Source: Calditrichota bacterium (GTDB lineage: Bacteria; Calditrichota; Calditrichia; RBG-13-44-9; J042). Taken from it: a stretch of DNA of 64,000 nt. Position 1 is the stretch's first letter, and every line of letters starts with the position of its first letter. The DNA lies in contig JAADJD010000015.1 of assembly GCA_013150955.1 (NCBI GenBank), positions 1 through 64,000 on the forward strand, written 5' to 3'. Under the pieces are notes generated by a model that saw only the letters and a program-made list of their open reading frames with translations, did not search any database and had not been told where the DNA came from. Below are positions 3,857 through 62,605 of this stretch, one piece after another. Made by a program: the position numbers and the translations under genes.

Positions 3857-4180
3857 ACCCGGATTTTGCATTTGCCCACGACTGACGCGAATCTACAGGA
3901 ATACTAAACCCAGATTATGCAATAGCCTACGAATGACACGAATTACAACGAATAAAAATAATAAACCCAGATTATGCATTAGAACCACGAATTGCACGAA
4001 TGAACACCAACAAAAATTAAATTGCACTTGATTCTATCCGGATGAAAATGTTTTCCCGGATACATTCGCTATATTGTTGATGTTATTCGAATTCAATCGT
4101 ATGATTCGCGGTTTATTGCATTATTTAGGTTTATTTGTGTTCATTCGCGTTATTGGTGGTTTAAAACGCAATTTGGGTTT
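3857..4180 (+). repeat. Dispersed element cluster (two left ends, full copy, right end)
   Basis: The order is a degenerate left-end fragment (3857-3900), a second left end (about 3906-3961), a full copy of the 'ACCACGAATTGCACG' subfamily (3963-4132), and an extra right end (4133-4180). This nested layout suggests repeated insertion or recombination between copies. The rest of the gap to the symporter gene (4181-4378) shows nothing recognisable. Confidence 0.8.
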
Positions 4181-4395
4181 CATTAAGTTCAGGATTAACA
4201 AACATTGGAAAAGCCCTTTTCTTTTTCCAGGATTTTCCGTAATCTTTACCGCAAAATTTGGGGTTTGATGGCGATGGTGAAGAGCGGATGAGCGACCGGC
4301 TGAATAAACCAATCAATCCAAAGATCCGGTGGGTTTCGCCATGGTCTGAGGTTCACGGGAAATCCATGGGTTTACCTTAGCAGGAGAAAGCGTCC

Positions 4396-6012
4396 ATGAT
4401 TTTGAATCTGGCCTGGATGGATCTGGTGGTCATTTTCCTTTATTTTGCCATCATTTTTGCCATTGGATTTTATTTTTCCAGGAAAGAAAAAACGTCGACC
4501 GACTACTTTCTTGCGGGACGGCATGTGGGGTGGTTTGCCATCGGAGCCTCTTTATTTGCGTCGAATATATCCAGCGAACATTTTATTGGTCTGGCGGGAT
4601 CGGGAGCCGCGTCTGGCATGGCGGTGGGGCATTTCGAATGGCTGGCCAGCCTGATCCTGTTGATTCTGGGCTGGGTGTTCGTCCCCTTTTATCTTCGCTC
4701 CCGCGTGTTCACCATGCCCGAATTTCTGGAACGCCGTTACGGAAGCGCCAGTCGCTGGTATCTGACCACGGTTTCCATTCTGGCCTATGTGTTGACCAAA
4801 ATTTCGGTCACCCTGTTTGCCGGGGGATTGTTGCTGGAACAGGTGCTGGGTTGGGACATGTACACCTCGGCGATCGTCATGGTGATTGCCACTGGCATTT
4901 ACACCATTGCCGGCGGCCTGGGAGCGGTCATTTACACCGAACTTATTCAAACATTTGTGTTGATCGGTGGAGCGGTGGTGCTGACGGCCATTGGATTGCA
5001 CGAGGTGGGGGGCATCTCGGGATTGCAGCAGGCGGTTCCCGCCGATTTTTTCCACATGTTCAAACCGATGGACGATCCCGATTTCCCCTGGACGGGCATC
5101 GTATTTGGGGCACCCATTCTGGGCATCTGGTACTGGTGCACCGATCAATTCATCGTTCAGCGGGTGCTGTCCGCAAAATCCATCGATCATGCCCGATCGG
5201 GAACCATTTTTGCCGGATTCTTAAAGATTCTGCCGGTATTTATTCTGGTGGTGCCCGGCATTATTGCCCGCGCGCTTTACCCCGATATCACCGGCGATCA
5301 GGCCTATCCGGCCCTGGTCACCCGTCTGTTACCAGTTGGATTGAAAGGCATTGTGGTTGCCAGTCTGTTAGCGGCGTTGATGTCCTCCCTGGCTTCCTGC
5401 TTTAATAGCAGTTCCACCCTGTTTACCATGGATGTGTATAAAAAGTGGAGACCTGAGGCCAGCGAGCGTCAGCTGGTGCTGGTGGGACGCACCGCCACCA
5501 CCGTACTGGTGGTTCTGGGAATATTGTGGGTACCCTTTATCAAGTACATTTCGTCCCAGCTGTATATTTACCTGCAGAGTGTTCAGGCTTATATCAGTCC
5601 CCCCATCGCAGCGGTGTTTTTACTCGGCGTTTTCTGGACGGGGGCAAACAGCAGGGGAGCCATTGCCTCACTGTTAACCGGGCTTTTCTTTGGTGCCCTG
5701 CGGTTGATTCTGGAATTGATGCACAAGCAATCGCCGTTTGAATGGGAATTGCTGCGGTGGTTTGCTGAGGTGAACTTCCTGCATTTTGCGATTCTCCTTT
5801 TCATCGTTTGTACGCTGGTTCTGGTGCTGGTCAGCAAGTTGACCGGACCTCCTTCGCGCGACAATGTGCAGGGCTTAACTTTCCGTTATGCCGATGAGGG
5901 TTCTTCCCCGCAGGCTTATGCCCACGAACATCCCCGATGGCGACGGGTAAATATAATCCTGAGCGGTCTGCTGATTCTGACCATGCTGACGTTGTGGTGG
6001 ATATTCTTTTAA
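4396..6012 (+). CDS. Sodium:solute symporter (SSS/SLC5 family)
   Basis: This 538-residue integral membrane protein has about 13-14 hydrophobic segments. Near residue 50 it carries GASLFASNISSEHFIGLAG, the conserved second-helix region of sodium/sugar and related SSS symporters; a typical 'STDYFLAGR' segment precedes it. It should couple inward sodium flow to uptake of a sugar or other small solute across the inner membrane; the substrate cannot be read from sequence. Length is normal for the family. An AGGAG ribosome site lies about 10 nt before the ATG. It stands alone between two clusters of the dispersed repeat, and its stop codon TAA directly joins the downstream cluster. Confidence 0.88.
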   Translation: MILNLAWMDLVVIFLYFAIIFAIGFYFSRKEKTSTDYFLAGRHVGWFAIGASLFASNISSEHFIGLAGSGAASGMAVGHFEWLASLILLILGWVFVPFYLRSRVFTMPEFLERRYGSASRWYLTTVSILAYVLTKISVTLFAGGLLLEQVLGWDMYTSAIVMVIATGIYTIAGGLGAVIYTELIQTFVLIGGAVVLTAIGLHEVGGISGLQQAVPADFFHMFKPMDDPDFPWTGIVFGAPILGIWYWCTDQFIVQRVLSAKSIDHARSGTIFAGFLKILPVFILVVPGIIARALYPDITGDQAYPALVTRLLPVGLKGIVVASLLAALMSSLASCFNSSSTLFTMDVYKKWRPEASERQLVLVGRTATTVLVVLGILWVPFIKYISSQLYIYLQSVQAYISPPIAAVFLLGVFWTGANSRGAIASLLTGLFFGALRLILELMHKQSPFEWELLRWFAEVNFLHFAILLFIVCTLVLVLVSKLTGPPSRDNVQGLTFRYADEGSSPQAYAHEHPRWRRVNIILSGLLILTMLTLWWIFF

Positions 6013-6352
6013 CCCTCATGAATGCATTAGCCTACGAATGACACGAATTCACACAAATAAAATAATCCCAGATTATGCATTAAAACCACGAATTACACGA
6101 ATTAACACCAATAAAAATAATAGAATGCACTTGATTTTATCTGAATGAAAATGTTTTCCTGGATATATTCGCTATTTTATTGATTTTATTCGAATTCATT
6201 CGCGTGATTCGTGGTTTAACGCATTATTTGAGATAATCAATTCCACTTGATGATGTCTGAATGAAAATTTGTTTCATGGCTTATTCGCGATTTTGTGGAT
6301 ATGGTTTGGTTGCATTCGCGTGATTCGTAGTTTAACGCATTATTTGGGATAA
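6011..6352 (+). repeat. Dispersed element cluster (left end, full copy, right half)
   Basis: A left-end fragment (6011-6065) begins at the TAA stop of the symporter. It is followed by a full copy (about 6066-6236, ending TTTGAGATAA) and then a second right half (6237-6352, ending TTTGGGATAA). Both right halves carry the same internal landmarks (GATGAAAAT, CATTCGCGTGATTCGT). The remainder of the gap to 6471 shows nothing recognisable. Confidence 0.8.
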
Positions 6353-6471
6353 ATGCACAAATTCTCCCGATTCCGCGTGAACCTCACCCTTCTTTACCCC
6401 GCATCTGGGCCCGGTTTTTCAATGCCAAGGTAAAGCTTCTCGATGTCTATGGAAAGTGTCCAGTGTTGTAA

Positions 6472-8544
6472 TCATTCAAACGCCATATTGCGAATCAGCT
6501 TTTGCATATCGTACGGTGCGGGTTCACCGCCCAGGTATTTGTGAAACCAATCCAGATGGGCATTGTAATACAGCGGCATTGATTTTACGAAATTTGGCCA
6601 GTGGCCGTCGTTTTTGAAGACGATGAGTCGCGAGGGAACGCCCATTTTCTGAAGGGCGGTAAAAAACTCCAGGCTCTGGGTGTAAGAGACCCGATAATCC
6701 CGCTCTCCGGTGATCACCAGACAGGGCGTCTTGAAATTCCGGACGAATTTGTGCGGCGACCATTTTTCGTATAAATCCGACGTCCAGGGCGTTCCCCCCA
6801 GATCCCACTGGGGAAACCACAGCTCCTCCGTGGTGCCGTAAAATGAAGTCAAATTGTAAACCCCCATCATGGCGGCCAGGGCTTTGAAGGGATGCTTGTG
6901 TCCCTGTAACCACATCATCATGTAGCCGCCGTAAGACCATCCCATGGCCCCCATGCGATTCTCATCCACATACGGCAATTTAGCCAGCGAATCGGCCACC
7001 GCCAGAATATCCTGATAAATTTTTCCACCCCAGTCGCGGGAAATGGCCTCTGTGAATGCCTGCCCGTATCCGGTAGAACCGTGGGGATTGGGGAACGCCA
7101 CGATGTAGCCCGCACCCGGGTACACCTGCCAATCCCCGCGGAAGGCATCGGCCCACATGCCCTGGGGGCCACCGTGTATGTTCAGGATGAGCGGGTACTT
7201 TTTAGACGGATCGAAATTGTGGGGCTTCACGATAAAGGTGTGGATTTTGTGTCCGGTGGGAGAGTCAATCCACATTTCTTCTGCCGGACGAATGTCCACC
7301 GAATCTTCGATGGCCTTGTTGAAGAAGGTCAATCGTTGCAGCTTTTTCCCTTTTGTGGTGGCCCGCCAGATTTCCCGCGGCTCCCCGACCGATCGTCGCA
7401 CCAGGATAATCCATTTCCCATCCGGCGTAATCTGAAAATCATCAATCGTTTTCACGTCCAGAATTTCCTGAATGCGTTTTGTTCGGATATCCACCCGGTA
7501 CAGCGGAACGTGTCCCCGGACGTCCGCCGTAAAATACAGGCTTCGGGAATCGGGTGCCCAGCGGAAATCATTCACCCAGTTGTCGAATGTTTCGGTGAGC
7601 ACGATGGTCTCCCCCGTTCGGCGATCATACAGGACCAGCCGGAAGCGATCGGATTCGTAATTGGGCACCATCTGGCGCCGAAATGCAATGTAGCGGCCAT
7701 CGGGGGAATATTGCGGATCCCCGTCGTAGGCTTCGTTGTCGTCGGTGATATTTCGTATCTGGCCATCTTCCAGGGAAATGATCCACAGGTCTTTATTGGT
7801 TGTCTCCCATTCGTTCGAGTCGCGATTGGACACCACACATATTTCCTTCCCGTCGGGAGAGATGCTGAATCCCGCACCACCCCCCAGGGAAAATGCCGGC
7901 GAATCATAGTCCCCCGGCGTTAAATCCCGATAGGTCTGGCTATCGAGTTGAAAAAGCAGGGTGTGGGTTCGCTTACCGTCCTTCCAGAAATCCCAGTGAC
8001 GGAACAGCAGCCGATCGGCCATGTGGGCCTGAATGGGCCCCTCGTCCATCGCCGTCTGAATCGCATCATTGCAATCGGGATCGGCACCACATTCCGGGAA
8101 AACGGTACTGGAAAAGACAACCGCTTCTCCATCGGGAGTGATCAGTGGATTTTGAATGCCCATGGGAAAGTCGGTAATTTGTTCCGGTTCGCCGCCGTCC
8201 ACGGGCAGGCGCCACAATTGAACGCCATCTGCTCGGGAAGACAGATAATAAAGGTAACGTCCATCCGGCGACCAGCGGGGATGAAAATCTGCCGCCGGAT
8301 TTCGGGTCATCTGTTTTAACTGGCGGCCGTCCAGGTTCATCACATAGATGTCGGCGTTGCTTTTGCCCTCCTCCAGGAAATATTCGGTCACCACAAAGGC
8401 GATGCGTTTCCCATCGGGGGATATCTGCGGGCTGTGAACATTCTTGATTCGGTACAGATCGGCAATTTGAAAGGCACGTTTTTGCGCACTGGCCAGGGCA
8501 ATCCAGGCGATCATCAACAACATCAAAATATGGCGTGGTTTCAT
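6472..8544 (-). CDS. S9 family peptidase (acylaminoacyl/dipeptidyl peptidase type), exported
   Basis: This 690-residue protein starts with a signal peptide (MKPRHILMLLMIAWIALASA). A beta-propeller of TolB/WD-like repeats follows (several SPDGKRI, SPDGRYL, TPDGKWI motifs, about residues 40-410), and then an alpha/beta-hydrolase domain. The expected triad is visible: Ser in GWSYGGYM near 535, Asp in GERDYRVSY near 611 and His in KNDGHWPNF near 644. It is likely periplasmic and would cleave short peptides, releasing dipeptides or acyl amino acids; exact specificity is not readable. An AAGGAG ribosome site precedes the ATG. No obvious operon partner: flanks on both sides are intergenic repeats. 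Confidence 0.9.
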   Translation of the reverse strand: MKPRHILMLLMIAWIALASAQKRAFQIADLYRIKNVHSPQISPDGKRIAFVVTEYFLEEGKSNADIYVMNLDGRQLKQMTRNPAADFHPRWSPDGRYLYYLSSRADGVQLWRLPVDGGEPEQITDFPMGIQNPLITPDGEAVVFSSTVFPECGADPDCNDAIQTAMDEGPIQAHMADRLLFRHWDFWKDGKRTHTLLFQLDSQTYRDLTPGDYDSPAFSLGGGAGFSISPDGKEICVVSNRDSNEWETTNKDLWIISLEDGQIRNITDDNEAYDGDPQYSPDGRYIAFRRQMVPNYESDRFRLVLYDRRTGETIVLTETFDNWVNDFRWAPDSRSLYFTADVRGHVPLYRVDIRTKRIQEILDVKTIDDFQITPDGKWIILVRRSVGEPREIWRATTKGKKLQRLTFFNKAIEDSVDIRPAEEMWIDSPTGHKIHTFIVKPHNFDPSKKYPLILNIHGGPQGMWADAFRGDWQVYPGAGYIVAFPNPHGSTGYGQAFTEAISRDWGGKIYQDILAVADSLAKLPYVDENRMGAMGWSYGGYMMMWLQGHKHPFKALAAMMGVYNLTSFYGTTEELWFPQWDLGGTPWTSDLYEKWSPHKFVRNFKTPCLVITGERDYRVSYTQSLEFFTALQKMGVPSRLIVFKNDGHWPNFVKSMPLYYNAHLDWFHKYLGGEPAPYDMQKLIRNMAFE

Positions 8545-8735
8545 GATGGGTGTCTCCTTTTTGGGTGTTGCTCCTTCATGCCATGATGATCCTAAACTAT
8601 TGGAAATCTTTCAAATAAGCAATAGATGAATAAATTTCCTCCAACCCATCGGCCCTGTATTGCCATGCTCATTCGGAAGAATGGCGGGAACCAGAACAGG
8701 GGCCACAGTAACCCACATTCTGTTCCGTAAATTTC

Positions 8736-8896
8736 AACCCAGATTTTGCAATAGCCTACGAATTACACGAATTATCGCGAACAAAAATGACATTTGATTT
8801 ATCTGGATAAAAATGGGTTCCCGTTTTTATTAACTATATTGTTGATATTTTTCGGATTCATTCGCGTGATTCGTGGTTTATTGTATGAAATGGGTT
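8736..8896 (+). repeat. Dispersed element, diverged full copy
   Basis: The left end AACCCAGATTTTGCAATAG is followed by CTACGAATTACACGAATT and a shortened centre. The right end is eroded (TTTATTGTATGAAATGGGTT). It lies between the divergently transcribed S9 peptidase and mlaE genes. The rest of 8545-9226 holds two close GAATATTC palindromes (near 9077 and 9093) and no gene. Confidence 0.75.
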
Positions 8897-9226
8897 CAAT
8901 CATGTAAAGAAATGAAGGGCAGATTGATTCCCCAAAATGGCTCCCAAACCGGTGGTGGATCTTCTCATTTTTTGCCCGAGCGGACTATTTAAATCCGATT
9001 TTTCATGTCGATTATGTTGCCTGACGGGGAAATGTGAAAAAATCATTGGTCGGCGCGGGCGAAGAGCCTAAATTGAATATTCGGTTTGAATATTCATTGT
9101 GCGTCCAATTCTGAGACGATGGAAAATGCAGGACGGGATGTTGTATCGCAACAAATTTGAAAACATCAAAACCTTAACGCGCCATAAGCGTAAGAGAAGT
9201 CTGTTACGTTGCAAAAACGAGAGAAC

Positions 9227-10012: not shown

Positions 10013-10022
10013 GAGTATGGCC

Positions 10023-10757: not shown

Positions 10758-10760
10758 ACC

Positions 10761-11723
10761 ATGGTCTCTTCCGATTCTGACCGACACATTCGGCTGGGTG
10801 TATTACTCATGATGGCGCTGGCCGTTTTTCTGGCCGGATTTATTTTTTACATGGTGGGCTCCACCCAGCGGTTGTTCGATCGCAAATATTCCATTTACAT
10901 GTTTCAACCCAATGTGGAAGGGCTACTGCCCGGGGCGTTCGTTACCCTGGCGGGATTGAAAATCGGTGTGGTGGGCAATCTGGAATTTGCCGAAGTGGAC
11001 GGGCAGCAGGGCATTCGGATTGAGCTGAAAGTGGATCGGGATTTTCAGGATCGCATCACCCGATCGTCTGTGGCGCGAATTAAAACCATGGGGATTCTGG
11101 GCGACAAGTATGTGGACATTTCCCTGGGTTACCTGAACGATCCCCCACTGGCCGAGGGCGATTTCATTCAATCGGTGCCCCAGCTGGATACCGATCGATT
11201 GCTGGCGAAGGCTGCCCGCATTGTGGACGAACTGGAGGCCACCTCCCGGAATATCAAAATCATTGCCGGGAATCTGGCGCAGGGTTCCGGTGCACTGGGG
11301 AAATTGTTGATGGATCCCACCATGGAAAGGCGGTTATCGACCGTGGTGCAGCGGTTGAATCTCCTGGCCGGTCAATTGGTGAGCGGAAAAGGCAACCTGG
11401 GCAAACTGGTGACCGATACCACTCTCTTTCGTACGCTTTCCAGGAGCTCCCGGTTGCTGGAAAAGATCCTGGCCGATCTTCAGGCCGGAAAGGGAACCGC
11501 CGGGAAGTTGCTGAAAGACGATGCCTTCTTTGCCCGGATCGATTCCATTTCCCGAAGAACGGATTCCCTTTTGATTCGTCTGCAGGGAGATGGCACGGCG
11601 GGACGATTGCTGAAGGACAGGGCTCTGTACGAACAGCTGGTCCAGCTAACCCGATCGCTGGATGCGCTGGTGAAGGACATGAAAGCCAATCCCGGAAAGT
11701 ATGTCACCTTCGAACTGTTTTAA
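10761..11723 (+). CDS. mlaD: MCE/MlaD-family lipid-binding protein
   Basis: This 320-residue protein has a short cytoplasmic start and one membrane anchor (about residues 12-33, LLMMALAVFLAGFIFYMVG). A single MCE domain follows (about 45-130, with VEGLLPGAFVTLAGLKIGVVG), then a long tail with repeated GKLLKD/GKLVTD-like units spaced about 30-40 residues apart. These repeats are typical of MCE proteins from this group and probably form an extended helical region. In the MlaFEDB model the MCE domain is periplasmic and carries lipid. It is the last gene of the operon; its TAA stop runs directly into a dispersed repeat and no terminator is seen. Confidence 0.88.
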   Translation: MVSSDSDRHIRLGVLLMMALAVFLAGFIFYMVGSTQRLFDRKYSIYMFQPNVEGLLPGAFVTLAGLKIGVVGNLEFAEVDGQQGIRIELKVDRDFQDRITRSSVARIKTMGILGDKYVDISLGYLNDPPLAEGDFIQSVPQLDTDRLLAKAARIVDELEATSRNIKIIAGNLAQGSGALGKLLMDPTMERRLSTVVQRLNLLAGQLVSGKGNLGKLVTDTTLFRTLSRSSRLLEKILADLQAGKGTAGKLLKDDAFFARIDSISRRTDSLLIRLQGDGTAGRLLKDRALYEQLVQLTRSLDALVKDMKANPGKYVTFELF

Positions 11724-11946
11724 ACCCGGATTCTGTATAAGACCACGAATTGCACGAATTAACACGAATAAAATCAATAAAATACGTTGGAATATATCTG
11801 GATGAAAATTCGTTTCGAGGTTTATTTGCGATTTTATTGATATGTTTTGGTTTCATTCGCGTGATTCGTGGTTTAACGAATTGTTTGGGTTAATATTTTT
11901 AGGATTCATTCGCATGATTCGTGGTTTGATGCATTATCTGGGTTAA
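11722..11946 (+). repeat. Dispersed element, full copy plus extra right end
   Basis: A full copy of the 'ACCACGAATTGCACG' subfamily (11722-11892, centre with GATGAAAATTCGTTTCGAGG) begins in the TAA stop codon of mlaD. A second right-end fragment follows (11893-11946). Confidence 0.82.
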
Positions 11947-12001
11947 ACCCCATGCCCGGATGGGATTGGCTTTACCGAATCCAGCCCGACTGATAAAACA
12001 C

Positions 12002-12030
12002 TTGCCAAATCCCGTTTCCAAAAATATATT
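12002..12030 (+). promoter_or_regulatory. Candidate sigma-70-type promoter for rfbB
   Basis: TTGCCA (12002-12007), a 17-bp spacer and TATATT (12025-12030) lie about 36 nt before the rfbB start codon. Confidence 0.5.
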
Positions 12031-12065
12031 GCAAAATTGAGATACAGGAAAATTTGGAGACGAAC

Positions 12066-22116: not shown

Positions 22117-22458
22117 AGCCCAGATTTTGCATTAACCAATACTGATACGAAGCCAAACGAATAAGAAAGACTAAAAGCCATTTGATGATATCGGGATGAA
22201 AATGGGTGTCGGGATTTATTCGCTATTTTTTGGATATTTCCTGGATGAATTCGCTTAATTCGTGGCTTAATCCCAGATTAAGCAATAGCCTACGAATGAC
22301 ACGAATTAACAACAAATAAAACCAATAAAATCCATTGGATTGTGTCTGGATGAAAATGTGTTCCATAGTTTATTCGCGTTTTTATCGACATTTTTTGGTT
22401 TCATTCGCGTGATTCGCGATTTAATGCAAAATTTGGCTTAATTTATAATTTGGGATAA
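22117..22458 (+). repeat. Dispersed element, two tandem copies
   Basis: A diverged copy (about 22117-22269, missing its right tip) is followed directly by a better-preserved 'CCTACGAATGACACG' subfamily copy (about 22270-22440). A further right tip, AATTTGGGATAA, ends at 22458, only 16 nt before the lpxD start codon. Any lpxD promoter would therefore lie inside or overlap the element. The stretch 21964-22116 shows nothing recognisable. Confidence 0.82.
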
Positions 22459-29998: not shown

Positions 29999-30559
29999 TC
30001 AAGCCGAAAGAGCTGTACTATTTCCCATAAATTGTATTCAGATTGTCAAACGACTCGCACGCTTTCCATGCGGAAACCCCTTTGATTTGCACGGGGGAGA
30101 ATAGATGGCCTCCGAAAGAACTCGCCGATTCTGATCCAACTATGCAGGTTTGTTATTGGTGGATGATGCCATTCAGTACCAGGAGTGCCCTAAGGGAGAC
30201 AAAAAGTTGCCAGTGGTTTTGAGCAGGTGGAGTTAGAAAAATACGCCAGGCAACAAAAAATGTAAAACACAGGGCCATTTTGTTTCTTATATTTTCTGGT
30301 GGGTTGCGGGGTGGAGAGATTATAAACCCAAATGATGCAATAGCCTACGAATGACACAAATTAACACAAATAAAACCAATAAAATACATTGGATTGTGTC
30401 TGCATGAAAATGTGTTTCAGGGTTTTTTCGCGATTTTGAGGATATTTTTGGTTTCATTCGCGTGATTCGTGAACGGGGATTCCGATACCAATAAACATAC
30501 GACTATTCTACGCTTTGCCCAGATACCGATCAAAGTCGGGTCGTCACATATCCCTGAGA
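29999..30559 (+). other. Intergenic gap between uppP and the PIN locus
   Basis: No gene recognised. It contains one dispersed element (30324-30473) and no terminator I could identify. The stretch 30030-30320 shows no clear structure. Confidence 0.4.
30324..30473 (+). repeat. Dispersed element lacking its right tip
   Basis: The left end AAACCCAAATGATGCAATAG is followed by CCTACGAATGACAC and the common centre. The match stops after CGCGTGATTCGTGA, so about 20 bp of the right terminus are missing. The left end here reads AAAT, like a right end, hinting at exchange between termini. Confidence 0.78.
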
Positions 30560-38177: not shown

Positions 38178-38355
38178 AACCCAGATTATGCATTAGACCA
38201 CGAATTGCACGAATTAACACAAATAAAAATAATCAAATACATTAGATCAGATCTGGATGAAAATTCGAAAATTCGTTTCGAAGTTTATTCACGATATTAT
38301 TGATATTTTTGGGTTTCATTCGCGTGATTCGCGGTTTAAGGCATTATTTGGGTTT
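38178..38355 (+). repeat. Dispersed element, full copy ('ACCACGAATTGCACG' subfamily)
   Basis: A complete copy from AACCCAGATTATGCATTAG to CATTATTTGGGTTT, with a short internal duplication (GAAAATTCGAAAATTCG). It ends 24 nt before the OB-HD start codon. An open reading frame runs through its right half in frame with that gene. Confidence 0.85.
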
Positions 38356-38379
38356 AATTTAAAATCCAGGAGCCCGATC

Positions 38380-39402
38380 ATGGCGAAAACGGCACAGCGA
38401 CAGGGGATAAAAACCGCTCCGCTTGGGGAGCCTTATGTGGGGTTTTGTGTGGTTCGGCGTAAGGAAATCCGCTATAAACAGGATGGGCGTCCGTATCTGG
38501 TATTGGAATTTGGGGATTGGAGCGGCCGGCTGAAAGCGCGCATCTGGGAAAACGTTCAACAATGGGATCGGCACATACCCGAAGGAGCCATCGTAAAAAT
38601 TAAAGCCATTCCCCAGATGTTTAATGACTTAAAGGAATTGAAGGTGCAGAAGATACGCTTGAAGCGGGAACAGGAGCAAATCGACATTCACCAGCTTTTG
38701 CCTTCGGTGAACAAAAATGTTTCGGAATTGAAAAGCCGATTTCACGATCATTTGTTCAGCGTCCGGCACGGCCATTTACGGCAGCTGCTGGATCGGATTT
38801 TTGCGGATGATGGATTCAAAGAACAATATTTCTTAACCCCTGGGGGAAAGCTATGGCACCACGTGTACCTGTACGGGATGCTGGATCATGTGGTGGGGAT
38901 GCTGGAGGTGGCCACGGCACTTTCCAAAGATGATCCCTGGCTTCATATGGATCTGTTAAAAACGGGCATTATCTTACACGACATTGGGAAAGTGTGGGAG
39001 CTGGATATTTCCCGTGGATTTATTGAGCTTTCCGATCAGGGGCGTTTATTCGGGCATGTTGTTCGTGGATTTAGTTTTGTCGAACGGCATGTGCGGGAGA
39101 TGGGTGATTTTCCATCCGAACTCTGGCTCCAGCTGGGGCATATGATTTTGAGCCATCCGGGGGAGCCCGAAAAAGGCGCCCCCGTCGTTCCCATGACGCG
39201 TGAGGCGATGGCTTTATCGTTGATCAATCAACTGGACGGAAATTTAAATGCGTTACAGCGAATCCTGCGTGCCGACGTGCCTCCGGGCTCGAAATGGAGT
39301 AAGTTCGTGCCCTTACTTGGTCGTTTTATTCACGTAAGTCATCCAGCGGAACAAAATCACCAGACCGAAGATCAGGAACAAATGCATCTGGGCGATCCAT
39401 AA
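38380..39402 (+). CDS. OB-fold plus HD-domain protein (YhaM-like 3'-5' exoribonuclease)
   Basis: A 340-residue protein. Residues about 20-110 form an OB-fold nucleic-acid-binding domain (YLVLEFGDWSGRLKARIWEN). Residues about 165-310 form an HD hydrolase with LWHHVYLYGMLDHVVGM and ILHDIGKVWEL (His-Asp near 208). This is the layout of YhaM/CbfA, 3'-5' exonucleases acting on RNA or DNA. The ATG at 38380 has CAGGAG seven bases upstream. A longer frame opening at 38257 is translated dispersed repeat and should not be used as the start. The C-terminal tail is rich in His and Gln. Confidence 0.85.
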   Translation: MAKTAQRQGIKTAPLGEPYVGFCVVRRKEIRYKQDGRPYLVLEFGDWSGRLKARIWENVQQWDRHIPEGAIVKIKAIPQMFNDLKELKVQKIRLKREQEQIDIHQLLPSVNKNVSELKSRFHDHLFSVRHGHLRQLLDRIFADDGFKEQYFLTPGGKLWHHVYLYGMLDHVVGMLEVATALSKDDPWLHMDLLKTGIILHDIGKVWELDISRGFIELSDQGRLFGHVVRGFSFVERHVREMGDFPSELWLQLGHMILSHPGEPEKGAPVVPMTREAMALSLINQLDGNLNALQRILRADVPPGSKWSKFVPLLGRFIHVSHPAEQNHQTEDQEQMHLGDP

Positions 39403-40228: not shown

Positions 40229-40532
40229 AAACCCGAATCATGCATTAAGCCGTAAATCCCGCGAACGAATAAACCCAGATTATTCTTTAGACCACGAATT
40301 GCACGAATTAACACAAATAAAAACAATAAAATCCATTGGATTAGATCTGGATGAATATTCGTTTCGAGGTCTTTTCATGATTTCATTGATATTTATTTGT
40401 TTCATTCGCGTGATTCGCGGTTTATTGCATTATTTGGGATAAAAACAAATCCACGAAATCGGGAATAACCCTCGAAAACCCATTTTCATCCAGTTATTTT
40501 CGTGTAATTCGTAGGCTATTGAAAAATCTGGG
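40229..40532 (+). repeat. Dispersed element cluster (left tip, full copy, inverted part)
   Basis: A left tip (40229-40270) precedes a full copy of the 'ACCACGAATTGCACG' subfamily (40271-40442). A partial copy in the opposite orientation follows directly (40443-40532, ending CGTAGGCTATTGAAAAATCTGGG). It ends 15 nt from the stop of the sigma-54 activator gene. The remainder of 40033-40211 shows nothing recognisable apart from the short motif above. Confidence 0.82.
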
Positions 40533-44902: not shown

Positions 44903-45141
44903 CAGCCCGGATACTGCATTAAACCCAAATAATGTGTTAAACCGCGAATCACGCGAATGAAGCCAGAAAATATCTGCAAAATCGCGAATTAACCCTGGAA
45001 CCCATTTTCATCCAGATATCATCCAATGGATTTTATTGTTTTTATTCGTTTTCATTCGTGTCATTCGTAGGCTAATGCATAATCTGGGGGGATTTGTGTT
45101 CATTCGAGTCATTCGTAGTATCATGCACAAACTGGGATAAA
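44903..45141 (-). repeat. Dispersed element, full copy plus end fragments
   Basis: In minus orientation: a short tip (44903-44920), a full copy (44921-45089) with the GCCTACGAATGACACG left end, then an extra left-end fragment ending CAAACTGGGAT (45090-45141). It fills most of the gap between mazG and rlmB; the final 56 nt before rlmB's stop show no terminator. Confidence 0.82.
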
Positions 45142-49260: not shown

Positions 49261-49261
49261 C

Positions 49262-50531: not shown

Positions 50532-50703
50532 TAAACCTAAATAATGCACTAAACCGCGAATCACGCAAATGAAACCGAAAAATATCTACAAAATCGCAAA
50601 TAAACCCTGGAACACATTTTCACACAGACACAATCCAGTGTATTTTATTAGCTTTATTTGTGTGAATTCGTGTAATTCGTAGGCTATTGCATAATCTGGG
50701 ATA
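50532..50703 (-). repeat. Dispersed element, full copy, inside the direct-repeat bracket
   Basis: A complete minus-orientation copy of the GCCTACGAATTACACG subfamily runs from AAACCTAAATAATGCACT to ATAATCTGGGAT. It separates the ATPase gene from repeat B. Confidence 0.85.
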
Positions 50704-51678: not shown

Positions 51679-52034
51679 TTTATCCCAAATAATGCGTTAC
51701 ACCACGAATCGCGCGAATGAATTCGAAAAAAATCAACCCAAATAAAGCGTTAAACCACGAATCACACGAATGAAACCAAAAAATATCTACAAAATCGCGA
51801 ATAAACCCTTGAACACATTTTCATCCAGACACAATTCAATGTATTTTATTGGTTTTATTTGTGTTAATTCGTGTCATTCGTAGGCTATTGCTTAATCTGG
51901 GCGTAGGCTATTGCTTAATCTGGGATCAACAAAATAGTGAATATATCCAGGAAAACATTTTCATTCAGATATCATCCAGTGTATTTTTATTGGTGATTAT
52001 TCGTGTCATTCGTAGGCGAATGCATAATCTGGTA
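51679..52034 (-). repeat. Dispersed element cluster with a 23-bp tandem duplication
   Basis: In minus orientation: a right-end fragment (51679-51733), a full copy (about 51734-51901), then an exact second copy of its last 23 bp (51879-51901 repeated at 51902-51924). A left half follows (about 51925-52034). It fills most of the gap between the membrane protein and the esterase; 51562-51678 shows nothing else. Confidence 0.82.
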
Positions 52035-52708: not shown

Positions 52709-52782
52709 TCCCAGAAAATGCATTTAACCGCGAATCCCGCGAATGAACCCCGAAACGAATTTTCATCCATTATAATCCCTGT
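52707..52782 (-). repeat. Dispersed element right-end fragment
   Basis: The right terminus (AATCCCAGAAAATGCATTTAAC) plus part of the centre, ending near CATCCATTATAATCCC. It starts within the esterase stop codon and ends 30 nt before the stop of the convergent synthetase gene. Confidence 0.65.
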
Positions 52783-54789: not shown

Positions 54790-54955
54790 GATTGTACCCC
54801 GCTTTTGATTCGGTTGTTACCTTCCTGTTGTTTTTTCATCAAATAAATTTTAAATAAAAGCAGTGGAAATTTCCACTTTAATCTGGATTTCTGTATCAGG
54901 GGTGCAGTGGCGGGGGGACAGAAATGTTTTATTTTTGCCCGGAACGGATCCCGTT

Positions 54956-55266
54956 AAACCCGGATTTCGCAATCGCTGTGTATTACACGAGTTCACACGA
55001 GAAATAATGGGATGAAAATGGGGTCCGGTGTTTACTCACTTTTTTGTTGATATTTTTGGAATAAGTGCTTGTGATTTACGGTTTTTCATGCTTAAATCCA
55101 AATAATGCATTAAACCGCGAATCACACGAATGAAATCACAAAATATCTATAAAATCGCGGATAAACCATAAAACACATTTTCATTCAGATATCACCCAAT
55201 GGATTTTATTATTTTTATTCGTCTTAATTCGTGTAATTCGTAGGCGATTGCATAATATGGGTTAAA
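54956..55266. repeat. Dispersed element, inverted pair
   Basis: A strongly diverged plus-orientation copy (54956-55093) is followed by a well-preserved minus-orientation copy (55094-55266, ending ATAATATGGGTTAA). It sits between the divergently transcribed synthetase and arsC-like genes. Just after it, ATTGAAAACCATAA is duplicated in tandem (55265-55292) before the arsC ribosome site. The stretch 54790-54955 shows nothing else. Confidence 0.78.
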
Positions 55267-55307
55267 ATTGAAAACCATAAATTGAAAACCATAAGGAGGG
55301 ATGATAC

Positions 55308-55661: not shown

Positions 55662-55814
55662 TCCCAATCATGGGGTATCATTTAATCGGTGAGAAATTCG
55701 TGCGGTCAATCTGACAAAAGCTTTTGAACATCAAGAAAACGGGTACGTTCAGCCAGCATGGTTTTTCAGAACTTTTGCAAAATGAACGCTCCTGTTTGCG
55801 CATCTATTGACCCT

Positions 55815-55858
55815 GCTTAAAAATAGCGATGGGTCTGCCCATCAGAGCAGACCCATCG
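55815..55858 (-). terminator. Terminator of the secreted-protein gene (minus strand)
   Basis: Perfect 12-bp arms CGATGGGTCTGC and GCAGACCCATCG (55827-55838 and 55847-55858) are followed on the minus strand by CTATTTTTAAG. It lies about 28 nt after the stop of the gene ending at 55886. Confidence 0.85.
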
Positions 55859-55885
55859 TTTACAATCGGCAATTTCTGAATGGAT

Positions 55886-57415
55886 TTACTTGATCAGGAT
55901 CATTTTCCGGGTGGCAACATACTTACCCGCACGCAGCTGGTAAAAATATACGCCACTGGGGAGATCGGTTGCGTTGAACGTCACCCGGTGCGTTCCGGCC
56001 CGTAAGCGCCCATCGATCAGAGTAACCACTTCCCGGCCGGTGACGTCGTACACCTTCAGGGTTACCCGTTCGCTTCGGGGAATGCTAAACCGGATGGTCG
56101 TTGCCGGATTAAAGGGGTTGGGGTAATTCTGATCCAGGCGATACTGTTGAACCAGGCTGCTGGTGGGCTGGTCATCAATGCTTGTAACCTGGGTGGATAA
56201 CACGGTTCCATCGGAGGCATCCACCAGCGCGGAGAAAGTGGCATCCGTACTGTCTGCCTCCGAAAAGCCTTTGTACTCCAGGTACCATAAAATCTTGGTT
56301 GGGTCATCTGGATAAGCCCAGTAGAAATTCCCCAGTTGCATCCCCAGTTCGTACACGTCGTACTGTTGCCGAAACAGGGCCCCACCGGCCTGTTCCACAA
56401 TCTGAAATACGCTGTCGCTATCAATAAATTGGGTTGGGATCTCCAGGGCATCCGATGGGATAAAACTGGTGTCGCTGGTATCAATTTGCACACCGAAAGT
56501 GCCCACAGTGACCTCGGTATAATATCCTAAAGTTGGGGAGTAAAAGATGAAATACCAGTAAAACGAACGGCCATTCATCACCGAATCGACCCAGCTGCCG
56601 ATGAAGAGCAGTTTTTGATCCTGGGCAATCTGCCGGGCCAGTGCGCGGGCACTATCCATCAGCTGGCGTGCCGTGTAGGGGGAGAATGATACCAGGGTAA
56701 TGTCGATGCCAGTCAGGTTGCCATCCTGAACCACCACGCTGTCTTCCATGCCATCGCCATCGGCGTCGTAAAAACCGATGTAGTCGCCACTTTCGGGCTC
56801 AATGAACCCGTCACGATTGGCATCGTAGACCGCGGTAACCCAGTAGGTTCCATTCCGGACATAATTCACCGTATAATTGCCCGTTGCATTGAGAACCACG
56901 CTGGAGCTTAAGATGGTTGGTGCTCCGCTATCGGTAGTGTCCTCTTCAAAAACTGAGGTTGGGGTAATGATGACAATCGTGTTCGTTGCATCCCCATCGG
57001 GATGGATGATTGTTCCACTGATGGTATAATCCCCGTGAGTGGCGGCCGTGGTGTAATTCAGGGCAAATGGGTGGGCTAAGGTGTCACCATTCGCACTGAT
57101 GGCCCAGGAAAGGATGAACACCACGTCGGTGTTGGGTGTTTGGGTGACGTCCAGATACAGGGTTTTAAAATCGGCGCTGTAGTACACACTATCGATCTGG
57201 ATGGAGTCTTTTGGAGAAATGGCAGCAAATCGCACCGGCAGCATGGGAGGCGGAAACGTGGCATCCAGAGCATCGGAAAAGGTGAAACTGATCGTGGTGC
57301 TGGTGGGTACATTCACAGCGCCATCGGCCGGGGAGGAGGAGACCACCTGAAATTGTGCCTGAACAGTGGTGGCTAAAAGTAGAAACACAGAAATGGTAGC
57401 AAAAACACGTTTCAT
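55886..57415 (-). CDS. Secreted protein with Ig-like fold and type IX sorting domain
   Basis: A 509-residue protein with a signal peptide (hydrophobic residues about 5-20, cut at VQA). An N-terminal Ig-like (Big_5-type) domain begins VVSSSPADGAVNVPTSTTIS. A carboxypeptidase-regulatory-like segment near 130-240 contains two Asp-rich calcium-type loops (DANRDGFIEPE and DADGDGMED). A unique middle region follows, then a C-terminal sorting module from about 420 (LDQNYPNPFNPATTIRFSIP, ending VATRKMILIK). Surface-exposed or released; binding target unknown. AAGGGG lies before the ATG. Confidence 0.82.
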   Translation of the reverse strand: MKRVFATISVFLLLATTVQAQFQVVSSSPADGAVNVPTSTTISFTFSDALDATFPPPMLPVRFAAISPKDSIQIDSVYYSADFKTLYLDVTQTPNTDVVFILSWAISANGDTLAHPFALNYTTAATHGDYTISGTIIHPDGDATNTIVIITPTSVFEEDTTDSGAPTILSSSVVLNATGNYTVNYVRNGTYWVTAVYDANRDGFIEPESGDYIGFYDADGDGMEDSVVVQDGNLTGIDITLVSFSPYTARQLMDSARALARQIAQDQKLLFIGSWVDSVMNGRSFYWYFIFYSPTLGYYTEVTVGTFGVQIDTSDTSFIPSDALEIPTQFIDSDSVFQIVEQAGGALFRQQYDVYELGMQLGNFYWAYPDDPTKILWYLEYKGFSEADSTDATFSALVDASDGTVLSTQVTSIDDQPTSSLVQQYRLDQNYPNPFNPATTIRFSIPRSERVTLKVYDVTGREVVTLIDGRLRAGTHRVTFNATDLPSGVYFYQLRAGKYVATRKMILIK

Positions 57416-57624
57416 GGGACAACCCCTTCTTTTTTTGATCGGTTTTTGTTTAATTTATACTAATCTTCGGATGGTTCTGTTTTAAAATTAGGGAACAAAT
57501 CAGATGGTACCCGATTTTAAATGTTCTCAAAATCCAATTGCTGGATTTCCAGAACGTTCAATCCTTTCTCGACATCACTGCAGGAAAACCTTATCTGGGT
57601 ACCAAAACACAGGAGGAAGCAACC

Positions 57625-58059
57625 ATGCCGTTTATCATAGAAGGGATCGTTGCGGGATTGGTGGGGACGTTCGTGATGACCCTGTGCCTGCTTTTGATTC
57701 ACAAGTCGGGTTGGGCCAATGCCGATATGGTTCGTGCCATCGGCAGTGCCATTACGCGGTCGTATCAGAATGCGTTTCCGGTGGGATTGGTGGTCCATTT
57801 TCTGGTAGGGATCCCGATCGCTCTGGCCTACCTGACCCTGTTGAATATTTTTCAGGTGCAGGGATACTGGTCCACCATCATGGCGGCGGGGTTTCTGGGA
57901 TTTGGCCATGGTCTGGTATTCAGCTTTTTGCTGCTGGCACTGGCAGAAATGCATCCCATGGAACGGTTCCAGCAGGTGGATTTACAGGTGGCATTTGCCC
58001 ATCTGCTGGCGCATGTGATTTATGGATTGGGGGTAGGAGTGGTGGCGGTGAATGTGTGA
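57625..58059 (+). CDS. Small membrane protein of unknown function
   Basis: A 144-residue protein with four hydrophobic helices (FIIEGIVAGLVGTFVMTLCL at the start, LVVHFLVGIPIALAYLTLLN in the middle, then GFGHGLVFSFLLLALAEMHP, and a last helix near HLLAHVIYGLGVGVVAV). His residues are conserved-looking within the helices. I do not recognise a named family. The ATG at 57625 follows GGAGGA; longer frames upstream lack such a site. Convergent with the SDR gene, 11 nt apart. Confidence 0.68.
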   Translation: MPFIIEGIVAGLVGTFVMTLCLLLIHKSGWANADMVRAIGSAITRSYQNAFPVGLVVHFLVGIPIALAYLTLLNIFQVQGYWSTIMAAGFLGFGHGLVFSFLLLALAEMHPMERFQQVDLQVAFAHLLAHVIYGLGVGVVAVNV

Positions 58060-58070
58060 CCGTTCTGGCC

Positions 58071-58865
58071 TCACCGCCTGCTCTGGATCCATTTAATGAT
58101 AAGGCTGGATAATCGCCGGGGCATGAGTCGACTACTTAACACCGACAGTCGATTCATCAGGCCGGGAATAACCATGCGCTGTCCCCGTTTTAAGCTGCGG
58201 TAAGCCACCCGGGCCACCGCCCCGGCACTCATCATGGGTAAAATGGGGAACGGTTTCTGAGGATCCTGTCCCGCCCGGATCTGAAATTCGGTTCGGGTGG
58301 GACCGGGGCAGAGGGTGGTGACGGTCACTCCGGTGCCGCGGAGTTCATCGGCCAGTGCTTCCGAAAATGACACCACGAACGCCTTGCTGGCATAATAAAC
58401 GGCCATGTAAGGACCCGGTGAAAATGCCGCCGTAGACGCCACGTTCAGAATGCTGCCCTTCCCCTGTTGAAGCATGTATGGCAAAATGGCCCGGGTCAGG
58501 GCCACCAGCGCCGTCACGTTAACCTGAATCATATCCACCACCGTTTCCGGGTCCGTTTCCCAGAATGCCCCCAGTTTGCCAAAACCCGCGTTGTTGATCA
58601 ATATTTCAATATCGGATAGCCGATCCTTTAACCGGTCTGTCAGGACTTTCACCGCATCCGGCCGGGCCAGATCCAGGGCAATGGGCTGAACGGAAATGCC
58701 ATAATCTGCCTCCAGCTCCTTCTGGCGCTGCTGCAATAGGTTCGAATTCCGGGCCACCAGGATCAGCGAGTATCCATCGGCGGCCAGCAATTTGCTCAAT
58801 TCGTAGCCAATACCGGTGGTGGCTCCTGTAACCAGGGCAACGGGATTATGCGTTGGATTCCCCAT
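58071..58865 (-). CDS. Short-chain dehydrogenase/reductase
   Basis: A 264-residue SDR protein with the cofactor motif TGATTGIGYELSK near 16, NNAGFGKLG near 95 and the catalytic YYASK (Tyr/Lys near 160) after the Ser in NVASTAAFSPGP. The active form resembles the YqjQ/DltE group of broad SDRs; ending LIIKWIQSRR. Substrate unknown. The ATG at 58865 follows GGAGG and lies 20 nt inside the end of the DUF72 gene, so expression is coupled. Confidence 0.87.
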   Translation of the reverse strand: MGNPTHNPVALVTGATTGIGYELSKLLAADGYSLILVARNSNLLQQRQKELEADYGISVQPIALDLARPDAVKVLTDRLKDRLSDIEILINNAGFGKLGAFWETDPETVVDMIQVNVTALVALTRAILPYMLQQGKGSILNVASTAAFSPGPYMAVYYASKAFVVSFSEALADELRGTGVTVTTLCPGPTRTEFQIRAGQDPQKPFPILPMMSAGAVARVAYRSLKRGQRMVIPGLMNRLSVLSSRLMPRRLSSLIIKWIQSRR

Positions 58866-59736
58866 TAGTACTTCCTCCTTCATTCAGAATTTTTTGCAAG
58901 CGTTTGATGGTCAACGGCGCGGATCCCTCGTAATGATTGTTCACGTTTATGTAAACGGTGCTCCCCCGGGAAAGCAGGTCCTTCACCATCCAGGCGATGG
59001 CCTGAAGATCGTCATCCCTGGGAATCACTACCCGATCCCAGCGGTTGCCGGATAATGCCTCGATGCCTGAGCGATCGGGACCGTGCAACCGGATTACCAC
59101 GGTGTCGCGGATTAATGTACGAAACTTCTGGTAAACTTCCACCACGTTTGGCATATAATATCCCTGAAGCAAAACAGGAACAATGTGGTGCCTCTGCAAA
59201 AACTGAAAAAACGCTCGATTGAGGTAATGGGGATTCCGAATCTCAATGGCATAGGTGAATGTTTGCGGAAGTCTGGGAAGGAAAGCCTCCAGGTGCTGTA
59301 GAAAAGCCCCCAGCGAGGGCATTTTCTGCCTGTTCAAATATTCAAACTGGAACATGACAGGCCCCAATAGCGGTTGCATGGGCGCCAGGCGATCCAGAAA
59401 CTCCCGCGTCAGGGTGGGCGAAAGGAAGTGCGGATTGCGGATTAGAGGATCTTCCCTGCGCTGGCGATAAAAGTGGGTCAGGGTAATGCTGTTGGCGGCC
59501 TTTACCGTGAATCGAAAATCCGGGGGGACGGCGGCGGCATAGTTTTCCACCGTCTGCCTGTCTGGCAATCGAACTGTGTTTTCGGCAAATAAAGACCAGA
59601 ACCACTGATCGATTTCCACCGTGTTGAAATGGCGGGCGTATTCGCTTAAAAAATGGTCTGGATTGGAGCTCTGGTAAATAATGCCCCGCCATTCTTTATA
59701 TTTCCAGCTGCAGGTACCGATGCGCAATTCGGCCAT
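58846..59736 (-). CDS. DUF72 (YecE-like) protein
   Basis: A 296-residue protein with the DUF72 start MAELRIGTCSWKYKEWRGII. EYARHFNTVEIDQWFW near 40 and FTVKAANSITLTHFY near 80 follow, with a TIM-barrel-like layout and VIRLHGPDRSG near 222. The biochemical role of DUF72 is not established. The start ATG at 59736 lies one base after the upstream peptidase stop; a much longer frame to 60054 overlaps that gene and is rejected. It overlaps the SDR gene by 20 nt. Confidence 0.85.
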   Translation of the reverse strand: MAELRIGTCSWKYKEWRGIIYQSSNPDHFLSEYARHFNTVEIDQWFWSLFAENTVRLPDRQTVENYAAAVPPDFRFTVKAANSITLTHFYRQRREDPLIRNPHFLSPTLTREFLDRLAPMQPLLGPVMFQFEYLNRQKMPSLGAFLQHLEAFLPRLPQTFTYAIEIRNPHYLNRAFFQFLQRHHIVPVLLQGYYMPNVVEVYQKFRTLIRDTVVIRLHGPDRSGIEALSGNRWDRVVIPRDDDLQAIAWMVKDLLSRGSTVYINVNNHYEGSAPLTIKRLQKILNEGGSTNGESNA

Positions 59737-59737
59737 G

Positions 59738-61714
59738 TTACTCCAGAGATGGTTGAAGGATTCGAACGGCTTCCGTGGCGGACTGGATGAGACGATCCGC
59801 CGAAATCGGTTCACCAATGGCCTGGTGCATCCAGACCTGAGGGGTGAGTCGCCCCAGTTTGCACATACGTTCCATCTCCGCTGCCAGATCTTTGTCCTGC
59901 ATGTAATGGAAAATCTGATACGCAATGAGATGGCCCAGCAGGTAATCCGGAATGTACATTCCTGTATCGATGATGTGGGAGTAGATGGCCAGAATTTCCT
60001 GATCGGCAACCCCCAGCACTGGTGCGAAATACTGGTTCCAGACCTCGCGGGCAATTTCCAGAACCGCCAGTTTCAGGTCGTCTGGAGAAGCGGAGGGATG
60101 AGCATACATCCAGCGCCAGATGCGCATGTCAACCAGGGCAACGCCTGCAATCTCAAAAGCCGACCACATTTCGTGAATGGCCAGCCATTCCATCCAGTGG
60201 GTGGTTTCCGGGGAGATCCCCAGCACCTCAAAGTCTCGTGATTGGAAGAGGAAGGCAAATGCCTCGGTAAAGCCGGTGTTGGGGACACCGTGCAGGGTGT
60301 AATAATCCATTTCTTCCAGGGTGAGCACCTGTTCTACGGTGTGTCCCAGTTCGTGCATGGCGGTGTTAAATCCTTTGTAGTTCATTCCCTCTCCGGGTAC
60401 CCGGGTACGCAAGTAGGCGCGATCGCCTCGCATTTCCGCACCCAGGGCATGTCCCGCCCCTCGGGCTGGTTCCACACAGATCCGGGCGGCCAGATATTCC
60501 GCCCGATCGCGGGAAAATCCCAGCCGTCGTAAAATATCCACCAATTTGTCCTGAAAGGCCCCTACCGTTGGAAATTGCTGGCGCACCTGCCGGTCCAGAT
60601 CCTCTTCGGGAATCTGGGGTTCCGGTTTTAAGCCCACATACCAGATGTCGAACGGTTCCAGCGGACGCCCCAGCCGTTGCTGAATGATGCGGGCAATGGA
60701 GGGAAGCACCGGTGCAGAAAGCACATCGGTGATGAGCCGTTCAACCTCAGCTTCTGGAATTTCCCGATCCAGCAGGAACCGTCGCTCAATGAGGGAAGGG
60801 GTGTCCGGGGTATGGGCATCGATCCCGCGCTCGGCATCGAAAACGGATTTCAGATACTGATAACGGCGATTGCCCTCGGGCGGGATCGGCGGGGGAAGCG
60901 GCTTCCCATCCCGGTATACCCGATTGGCCAGGGGATCCCACTCCACTTCCGGATTGTCGATCACGATTTCCGGAATGTCCTGCTGCAGGATGCGGTTCAT
61001 GATCTGATAAATGAGGCGTTGTCTGGGAAGTCCATCCGGTTGTGCGTAGAGGGCTTTGATTTCATCCCGCAATCCCCAGTGGCTGATCAGCTTCTGCCCT
61101 TCAGGAAAACCCGCTGGCTGGCCCTGGACACGCAATCGATCCATGTGGATATTGTATTTGCTGATGTATTCGTCCGCGCGGGTATAGGTCGCCGTGCGGT
61201 GTTGCAAAACCGAAGCCGGGATGCGTTGACGGAAATAATCCGCCAGCCGGGCCTCTGCCCATTGCCGGCGGCTCCAGTTTATCCCATCCTGGTTTTTCGT
61301 ATTCAGGTCATAAATGGGAAAGTTTAATAAGGCCACAAATGCCAGCCGGGTTTGAAACAGATCCTCCTGCACATGAGCAAAGGGATCGTAACCGGCAAAC
61401 AGACTGTCAATGGGTAGCATGGGGCCAGTATCCACGTGCAATTCCCGATGCAACTCTCGATAAATGCGATGCAGATTACCAAACAGAGATTCCAGCTTGC
61501 TTAAAAAGCGCTGAAACACCAGTTCCCGCTGTTCTTCCCGAGGGTAAAAATGCGCCCGGCAGAAGGCGTGAAAATCGTCTGCGCTGCCATCGGACGCATG
61601 CCAGCGAGCAGCAACCTGCCGCACCCCGATTTCAATGCGATGGCGATGCACCTCTCCGTTACGCTGAATTAATGCCTGAATGACTTCTTCCTGAATGGCC
61701 TTGGAAATCACCAT
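59738..61714 (-). CDS. Uncharacterised gluzincin-type metallopeptidase
   Basis: A 658-residue protein, largely helical. It contains the zinc-binding HELGH (near 455, in FNTAMHELGHTVEQVL) and a downstream Glu in NTGFTEAFAFLFQ about 27 residues later, the gluzincin arrangement seen in M3/M32/M2-like peptidases. No signal peptide is present, so it is probably cytosolic. I could not assign a named family. It is followed after one base by the DUF72 gene, then SDR, forming a three-gene unit. The GGAGACGT ribosome site precedes the ATG at 61714. Confidence 0.72.
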   Translation of the reverse strand: MVISKAIQEEVIQALIQRNGEVHRHRIEIGVRQVAARWHASDGSADDFHAFCRAHFYPREEQRELVFQRFLSKLESLFGNLHRIYRELHRELHVDTGPMLPIDSLFAGYDPFAHVQEDLFQTRLAFVALLNFPIYDLNTKNQDGINWSRRQWAEARLADYFRQRIPASVLQHRTATYTRADEYISKYNIHMDRLRVQGQPAGFPEGQKLISHWGLRDEIKALYAQPDGLPRQRLIYQIMNRILQQDIPEIVIDNPEVEWDPLANRVYRDGKPLPPPIPPEGNRRYQYLKSVFDAERGIDAHTPDTPSLIERRFLLDREIPEAEVERLITDVLSAPVLPSIARIIQQRLGRPLEPFDIWYVGLKPEPQIPEEDLDRQVRQQFPTVGAFQDKLVDILRRLGFSRDRAEYLAARICVEPARGAGHALGAEMRGDRAYLRTRVPGEGMNYKGFNTAMHELGHTVEQVLTLEEMDYYTLHGVPNTGFTEAFAFLFQSRDFEVLGISPETTHWMEWLAIHEMWSAFEIAGVALVDMRIWRWMYAHPSASPDDLKLAVLEIAREVWNQYFAPVLGVADQEILAIYSHIIDTGMYIPDYLLGHLIAYQIFHYMQDKDLAAEMERMCKLGRLTPQVWMHQAIGEPISADRLIQSATEAVRILQPSLE

Positions 61715-61910
61715 ACACGTCTCCCTATTTACACCGATCGTTAATCTAATATGTTTTTTGGGCGTTCAAAACAAAACCAATTTTTTGCTGGATGGTTGAT
61801 CGTTACCGGAAAAACTGATGCAAATGGCGCTTCTGAACAGCAAAATCCGCCAAAATCATTGAAATATCGATAATTTATCGCATTTTTTCCTTTTTTTCTT
61901 TGATTTTTTC

Positions 61911-61939
61911 TTGACATTTTCATCTCCAGTTAGGATATT
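61911..61939 (+). promoter_or_regulatory. Promoter of the HU gene
   Basis: TTGACA (61911-61916), a 17-bp spacer and GATATT (61934-61939), preceded by a T-rich upstream stretch, lie about 47 nt before the HU start codon. Confidence 0.65.
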
Positions 61940-61985
61940 TTTGCGTTTCGTATCCAGTCAAATACATAAAGAAAGGAGTAGTGGT

Positions 61986-62258
61986 ATGAACCGTAAAGAA
62001 CTGATTGACGCACTCGCTGGTAAAACCGGTTTTACCAAAAAGGATGCTGATAAGTTTTTAAGTGCTTTCCAGGAAGTGGTGGTGGAAGCCTTAAAGAAAG
62101 GGGAATCCGTAAATCTGGTTGGTTTTGGGGTTTTTAAGGTTGTTGAGCGTCCGGCACGGGAAGCCCGTAATCCCCGCACGGGTGAAAGGATTAACATTCC
62201 TGCACGAAGAGTCCCCCAGTTTAAACCTGGCAAAGGTTTGAAAGAAAGCTTGGCCTAA
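61986..62258 (+). CDS. HU-family DNA-binding protein
   Basis: A 90-residue protein with the HU/IHF fold: MNRKELIDALAGKTGFTKKDA at the start, the beta-arm region FGVFKVVERPAREARNPRTG with the intercalating Pro near 63, and a basic tail. It compacts and bends DNA as a dimer. AAAGGAG lies 8 nt before the ATG. Single-gene unit with its own promoter and terminator. A longer frame from 61911 would begin inside the promoter and is rejected. Confidence 0.95.
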   Translation: MNRKELIDALAGKTGFTKKDADKFLSAFQEVVVEALKKGESVNLVGFGVFKVVERPAREARNPRTGERINIPARRVPQFKPGKGLKESLA

Positions 62259-62270
62259 AATGTGTGGAGG

Positions 62271-62309
62271 AAGCTGACCTTCTGGAGGAAGGTCAGCTTT
62301 ATATTTTTT
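62271..62309 (+). terminator. Rho-independent terminator after the HU gene
   Basis: AAGCTGACCTT (62271-62281) and AAGGTCAGCTT (62289-62299) form an 11-bp stem, followed by TATATTTTTT. It lies 12 nt after the HU stop. Confidence 0.9.
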
Positions 62310-62434
62310 CTAAAAAAACATCCCTGCCTTTACCACCATTCCAGGGGGAAATTCCGTGAACCTCCCCTAATAAGCCTTCTTGTCGAAAAACATTAAAATC
62401 GAGGTTTTTAAGCGAATCCCGTTGAAAGTGAATT

Positions 62435-62605
62435 AGACCCAGATTATGCATTAGCCTACGAATTACACGAATGAACACAAATAAAACCAATAAAATGCAT
62501 TGGATTGTGTATGGATGAAAATGTGGTCCAGAGTTTATTGACGATTTTGTAGATATTTTTTGGTTTCATTCGCGTGATTCGTGGTTTAACGCATTATTTG
62601 AGTTA
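62435..62605 (+). repeat. Dispersed element, full copy
   Basis: A well-preserved GCCTACGAATTACACG-subfamily copy from GACCCAGATTATGCATTAG to GCATTATTTGAGTTAA. Its last bases include the TAA stop of the convergent downstream gene (read on the minus strand). The stretch 62310-62434 shows nothing else. Confidence 0.85.

Follow-up and report, generated by a model that had tools for sequence, protein, structure and literature searches.

Several families of small palindromic repeats occupying the intergenic regions of bacteria have been described. ERIC of the Enterobacteriaceae is a small, MITE-like intergenic palindrome kept at high copy number, and the 711 ERIC copies of Photorhabdus luminescens are the highest copy figure in the accessible part of a 2024 review of prokaryotic MITEs, in which IS1380 is not mentioned (PMC10969869). 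Chunjie of Geobacter uraniireducens, Correia of Neisseria, and RUP/BOX are likewise MITEs or small repeats that lie between genes and bear inverted repeats; insertion of the pneumococcal RUP/BOX elements into one another, as seen here, is noted in the same part of the review (PMC10969869). The ends of the IS1380 family of insertion sequences (ISs), e.g., ISEcp1, begin with CC, and 5-bp target duplications were reported for ISEcp1 in the source of its end sequence (PMC7864471). The IS1380 transposases form the outgroup of the piggyBac trees (PMC10813416). The piggyBac elements resemble the repeats presented below in that their ends often start with CCC and their targets are TTAA-like. No description of an IS1380-linked MITE was found in the partially covered literature combining both terms. 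The literature search returned nothing on transposable elements in Calditrichota, and no hits were obtained for the end sequences in papers or for the MITE consensus in plasmid and phage records.

The window, i.e., the whole 64-kb stretch of Calditrichota DNA that was analyzed, had been proposed in a sequence-only reading to contain a dense family of repeated palindromes, and the presence of this family was confirmed. The end motif AACCCARATWATGCATTAR was matched 34 times at no more than three mismatches versus 0.14 expected from shuffles, and the internal landmark CATTCGCGTGATTCGT occurred 33 times versus 0.67 expected in the same way. A profile built from the window copies themselves gave 25 non-redundant matches, 12 of them essentially full length; they occurred in both orientations, as claimed, and covered 4.7% of the window in comparison with the claimed ~5%. 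The family had been assigned to ~15 loci, but it is represented by more pieces, with fragments and nested copies at several sites. One end-motif match (71-89) did not hold as a family copy, being the end of a different, longer element (E2).

The element proper extends from CCC to GGG, with a consensus of ~165 bp, well within the limit of ~600 bp for a MITE, and the end CCCAGATTATGCAWTAG. The length of 170-180 bp suggested previously is approached only when both 5-bp target duplications are included (~175 bp); the leading AA of the suggested end motif is flanking DNA and part of the 5-bp duplication. The proposed similarity between the ends was reproduced, with each consensus end aligning to the reverse complement of the other over ~40 bp inward. 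No long ORF was found inside the copies, in agreement with the postulated absence of coding capacity. The location of all copies between genes was true for all but one of the 25 matches. The exception (38180-38352) overlaps the predicted start of the ORF at 38257-39402, probably as a result of an over-extended start codon.

Full copies with identical 5-mers on both sides were found at 38180-38352 (plus strand, TTTAA), 40274-40438 (plus, ATAAA; followed by a degenerate copy at 40444-40532, minus), 50537-50700 (minus, TTTAT), and 55097-55261 (minus, TTTAA). The full copy at 62438-62602 (plus), flanked by TTAGA and TTAAA, served as the genome query. The profile also assigned a full copy at 3966-4127 (plus), clustered with two left-end fragments (3858-3903 and 3909-3965), another at 44924-45088 (minus), accompanied by a left-end fragment at 45092-45136, and a cluster at 51685-52032 (minus) composed of a right-end fragment, a full copy (51738-51901), and the left part of another copy. 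Less complete profile matches comprised a copy with a shortened interior at 8738-8888 (plus), a copy without the right terminus at 30327-30471 (plus), a right-end fragment at 52713-52755 (minus), and a degenerate partial copy at 54959-55084 (plus).

The genome statistics refer to an 828-kb sample, ~20% of the 4.07-Mb genome. In this sample, 253 profile matches were detected, of which 116 passed a strict criterion for full length; together, the matches occupied 3.6% of all bases and 19% of the intergenic ones. Scaling by sequence length gave ~570 full copies genome-wide. The second scaling, via the strict left-end pattern (183 genome matches, of which 40 fall in the sample), gave ~530 full copies and 1,160 in all.

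Insertion of the element is accompanied by a 5-bp target-site duplication of the consensus WTNAW, observed as TTTAT, TTAAA, TTTAA, ATAAA, ATAAT, or TTAAT, and in a few cases with a central G or C. Exact 5-bp direct repeats flanked 41 of the 116 full copies, whereas 1,000 re-pairings of the flanks averaged 9.6 and never exceeded 20; a 6-bp flank match was found at none of the 116. Among isolated copies, the exact repeats were present at 22 of 58 (5.3 expected). No exact duplication was seen at ~65% of the full copies, owing to sequence decay, nesting, or incorrectly placed ends.

Comparison with a relative of the same genus (G001) provided one precise case of an empty site. The copy at 11725-11942 (plus), which carries an extra right end, is bordered by TTAAA at 11720-11724 and 11943-11947, and the corresponding site in G001 is uninterrupted, with a single CTAAA. 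Other syntenic gaps in G001 are also free of copies and are too diverged for exact junctions to be defined.

The A/T-rich parts of the copies receive other copies as well. At 6022-6347 (plus), the outer copy (6022-6062 and 6232-6347) is split at profile position 49 by a complete inner copy (6067-6230) with ATAAT on both sides, and its match to the profile continues from the same position. At 22119-22436 (plus), a full copy with TTAAT at each border (22272-22436) lies inside the right end of the outer copy (22119-22270). Repeated end modules arise because copies insert into one another; 69 of 79 left-end fragments and 27 of 40 right-end fragments adjoin another copy. The seeming excess of left ends among the fragments shrank to 195 versus 165 once the arms were counted separately. 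A short palindromic variant consisting of the arms only, suggested by the arrangement at 3858-4127, was rejected, as no left-left or right-right arm pairs were found.

The midpoints of only 2 of the 116 full copies fell inside predicted genes, though 81.5% of the sample is coding according to the simple, custom-written codon-usage caller that was used for gene prediction. We infer that this intergenic bias reflects the loss of gene insertions together with attraction to A/T-rich gaps. The simplest reading is that of a non-autonomous transposon tolerated where it is least harmful, and nothing here calls for a host function. The copies are 6-22% diverged from the consensus (mean 13%), and the median nearest neighbor is 91% identical (96% for the closest pair); thus, the copies were not amplified in a single very recent event. 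The strict left-end pattern, with its 183 matches in this genome, was found once each in G001 and G007 and in none of the other 37 of the 39 other Calditrichota genomes searched. A pattern scan of named genomes gave at least two records corresponding to these two relics, one of them with a Calditrichota label, and the host was assigned to the phylum on this evidence. The IS1380 transposase described below was absent from the other Calditrichota genomes searched (E 1e-20), with the exception of relatives in G017 that are 31-34% identical. Hence, the expansion is lineage-specific.

Several other repeats were encountered during these searches. The G001 relic (L094, 2441-2752) combines the MITE ends, each next to ATAAT, with a different interior of ~300 bp. 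The inner arm motif CACGAATTACACGAATTNACACGAAT was also seen without the CCCAG terminus (L035 and L043 in G016, and L117-L119). Four exact copies occur in G016, another Calditrichota genome, versus zero in the reversed control, and the motif may thus be shared by a broader group of repeats. Another repeat family, represented by the sequence ACCCGTTGTGCGAATTAGACAACCCAAACCGTTGAAACGGTT, was seen at contig ends (L086, L136, L147, L148, L155) and next to fragments in C15 and C17; in some places it directly adjoins MITE copies that are truncated. A tandem-like array of CAAAACATACGGTTGTTTTA units adjoins a MITE copy that sits in a short ORF (L031 ~1950-2200, G000:C18).

The genome also encodes a transposase that belongs to an IS with ends matching those of the MITE. 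The sole PF13701 match in the assembly, above the cut-off, is located on contig C18; its product scored 219 bits against the NCBIfam IS1380 equivalog NF033539 (cut-off 180) and contains the YREK motif. This only assembled copy of the gene is frameshifted and cut by the contig end. Contig ends elsewhere yielded five right termini of the ~1.46-kb IS, CCCAGATTACGCATTAGAGAATTG, and the left termini, CCCAGATTACGCAATAGAACG, numbered four including that on C18; thus, the IS is multicopy and collapsed in the assembly. WTNAW 5-mers adjoin eight of the nine IS termini, the exception being the left end on C18. The MITE and IS ends are identical at 16 of 17 terminal bases, with the difference at position 10 (T versus C) fixed in nearly all copies. 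The similarity stops after ~17 bp and, therefore, derivation of the MITE by internal deletion of the assembled IS1380 element was rejected. The IS ends look nearly identical among copies in comparison with the diverged MITEs, so part of the amplification may be due to a related element that was active earlier. Judging from position 10 and the short stretch of similarity, the assembled IS1380 element may not have been the driver of the burst.

Altogether, the target duplications, the empty site, the nesting, and the multicopy IS1380-family IS with matching ends favor the MITE option of the sequence-only reading. It is highly probable that the repeats are 165-bp non-coding MITEs with long imperfect terminal inverted repeats, moved in trans by an IS1380-family transposase. 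We infer that the enzyme was either the one encoded by the detected IS or a close relative, since lost or unassembled, and an IS1380-type transposase very probably copied the MITE into the A/T-rich gaps. In the proposed mechanism, the IS1380-family DDE transposase would bind the ends at CCCARATWATGCAWTA and at the inner CGAAT repeats, move the element, and insert it into A/T-rich WTNAW targets, the 5 bp of which would be duplicated in the process, and the palindromic fold would be a by-product of the inverted repeats.

The second multicopy element, E2, with the terminus CCCAAATAATGCATTAG, might also be considered as the source of the transposase. One copy lies at 1-87 of the window (minus), beside TTAAA, and the two others at the C13 end and close to where C47 starts (loci L120 and L122); the flanks TTAAA, ATAAA, and TTGAA are all of the WTNAW type. 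In the window, E2 truncates an ORF (...KTVIL) that is intact in G001. The E2 terminus, exact over 16 bases, is the MITE right terminus, and E2 is another candidate partner. In that case, the enzyme acting on the MITE would have come from E2 or from some other, lost element whose ends are exactly those of the MITE, and the assembled IS1380 element would be no more than a relative. The fixed difference at position 10 fits this possibility. However, a further IS1380-type (PF13701) transposase was not found in the assembly, no gene was seen in the 223 bp of E2 that could be assembled, and E2 itself may be non-autonomous. No continuation beyond these 223 bp was found through other contig ends. We regard this explanation as possible but rather unlikely.

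No support was gained for the option in which the repeat would be a structured RNA, or a regulatory hairpin of the terminator kind, with the fold maintained by selection. Both strands fold well, and the copies are intergenic and denser in convergent gaps (24 copies in 16.4 kb) than in divergent ones (12 in 21.1 kb). However, the folding energies were within ~1 kcal/mol of the column-shuffled control, and covariation did not exceed that in shuffles on either strand, the double-change cells numbering 42 versus 37 ± 5 on the plus strand and 46 versus 39 ± 4 on the minus strand. Compensatory base changes were not seen, and the data therefore do not support conservation of an RNA structure. Additionally, no Rfam match was obtained, the orientation relative to genes is balanced (59/57), and the target duplications would be left unexplained. 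The RNA option of the sequence-only reading is thus very improbable. The REP/REPIN reading, in which a large palindrome would depend on a REP-associated Y1 transposase for its movement, is hardly credible at all: the copies are palindromic and extragenic and the genome encodes two Y1-family genes (G000:C35:4903-5244, L114, and G000:C13:51588-51890, L115), but REP/REPIN are Y1 (RAYT)-linked palindromes of ~20-40 nt without target duplication, in contrast to the 165-bp element with long terminal inverted repeats, 5-bp duplications, an empty site, and ends matching an IS1380 element, and to our knowledge Y1 enzymes are not expected to make 5-bp target duplications.

The MITE, probably mobilized by an IS1380-family transposase, is of a kind already known and its mechanism is ordinary; the family and its density are unusual. 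The MITE end resembles that of the IS1380 family, with 10 of 14 positions shared between the ISEcp1 IRL CCTAGATTCTACGT and CCCAGATTATGCAT. Unlike the IS1380 ISs, it has no transposase, and its inner arms with CGAAT repeats and its center are unlike the corresponding parts of the IS1380 element found in its host. The piggyBac target is the 4-bp TTAA in contrast to the 5-bp WTNAW observed here. The ends, targets, and hosts of Chunjie, Correia, and RUP/BOX differ from those of the Calditrichota MITE. As far as the accessible part of the review goes, the copy numbers reported for Chunjie and Correia are lower than here (PMC10969869). ERIC resides in an unrelated host. In our case, the genome that contains the MITE also carries an IS whose ends match, and the estimated copy number, comparable to the 711 ERIC copies, falls in a genome of 4.07 Mb, giving a higher estimated density. 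The genome offers a high-copy MITE family alongside its probable autonomous partner, with WTNAW as a target preference that can be measured and with one empty site. We tentatively propose, as a possibility short of even odds, that this burst in a single Calditrichota lineage ranks with the densest ones known from prokaryotes and was fed by at least two elements sharing one terminus. If so, a burst of more than 1,000 full and partial copies, making up ~3.6% of the DNA and a fifth of the intergenic DNA, would constitute an IS1380-based bacterial parallel to the MITE bursts of plants.
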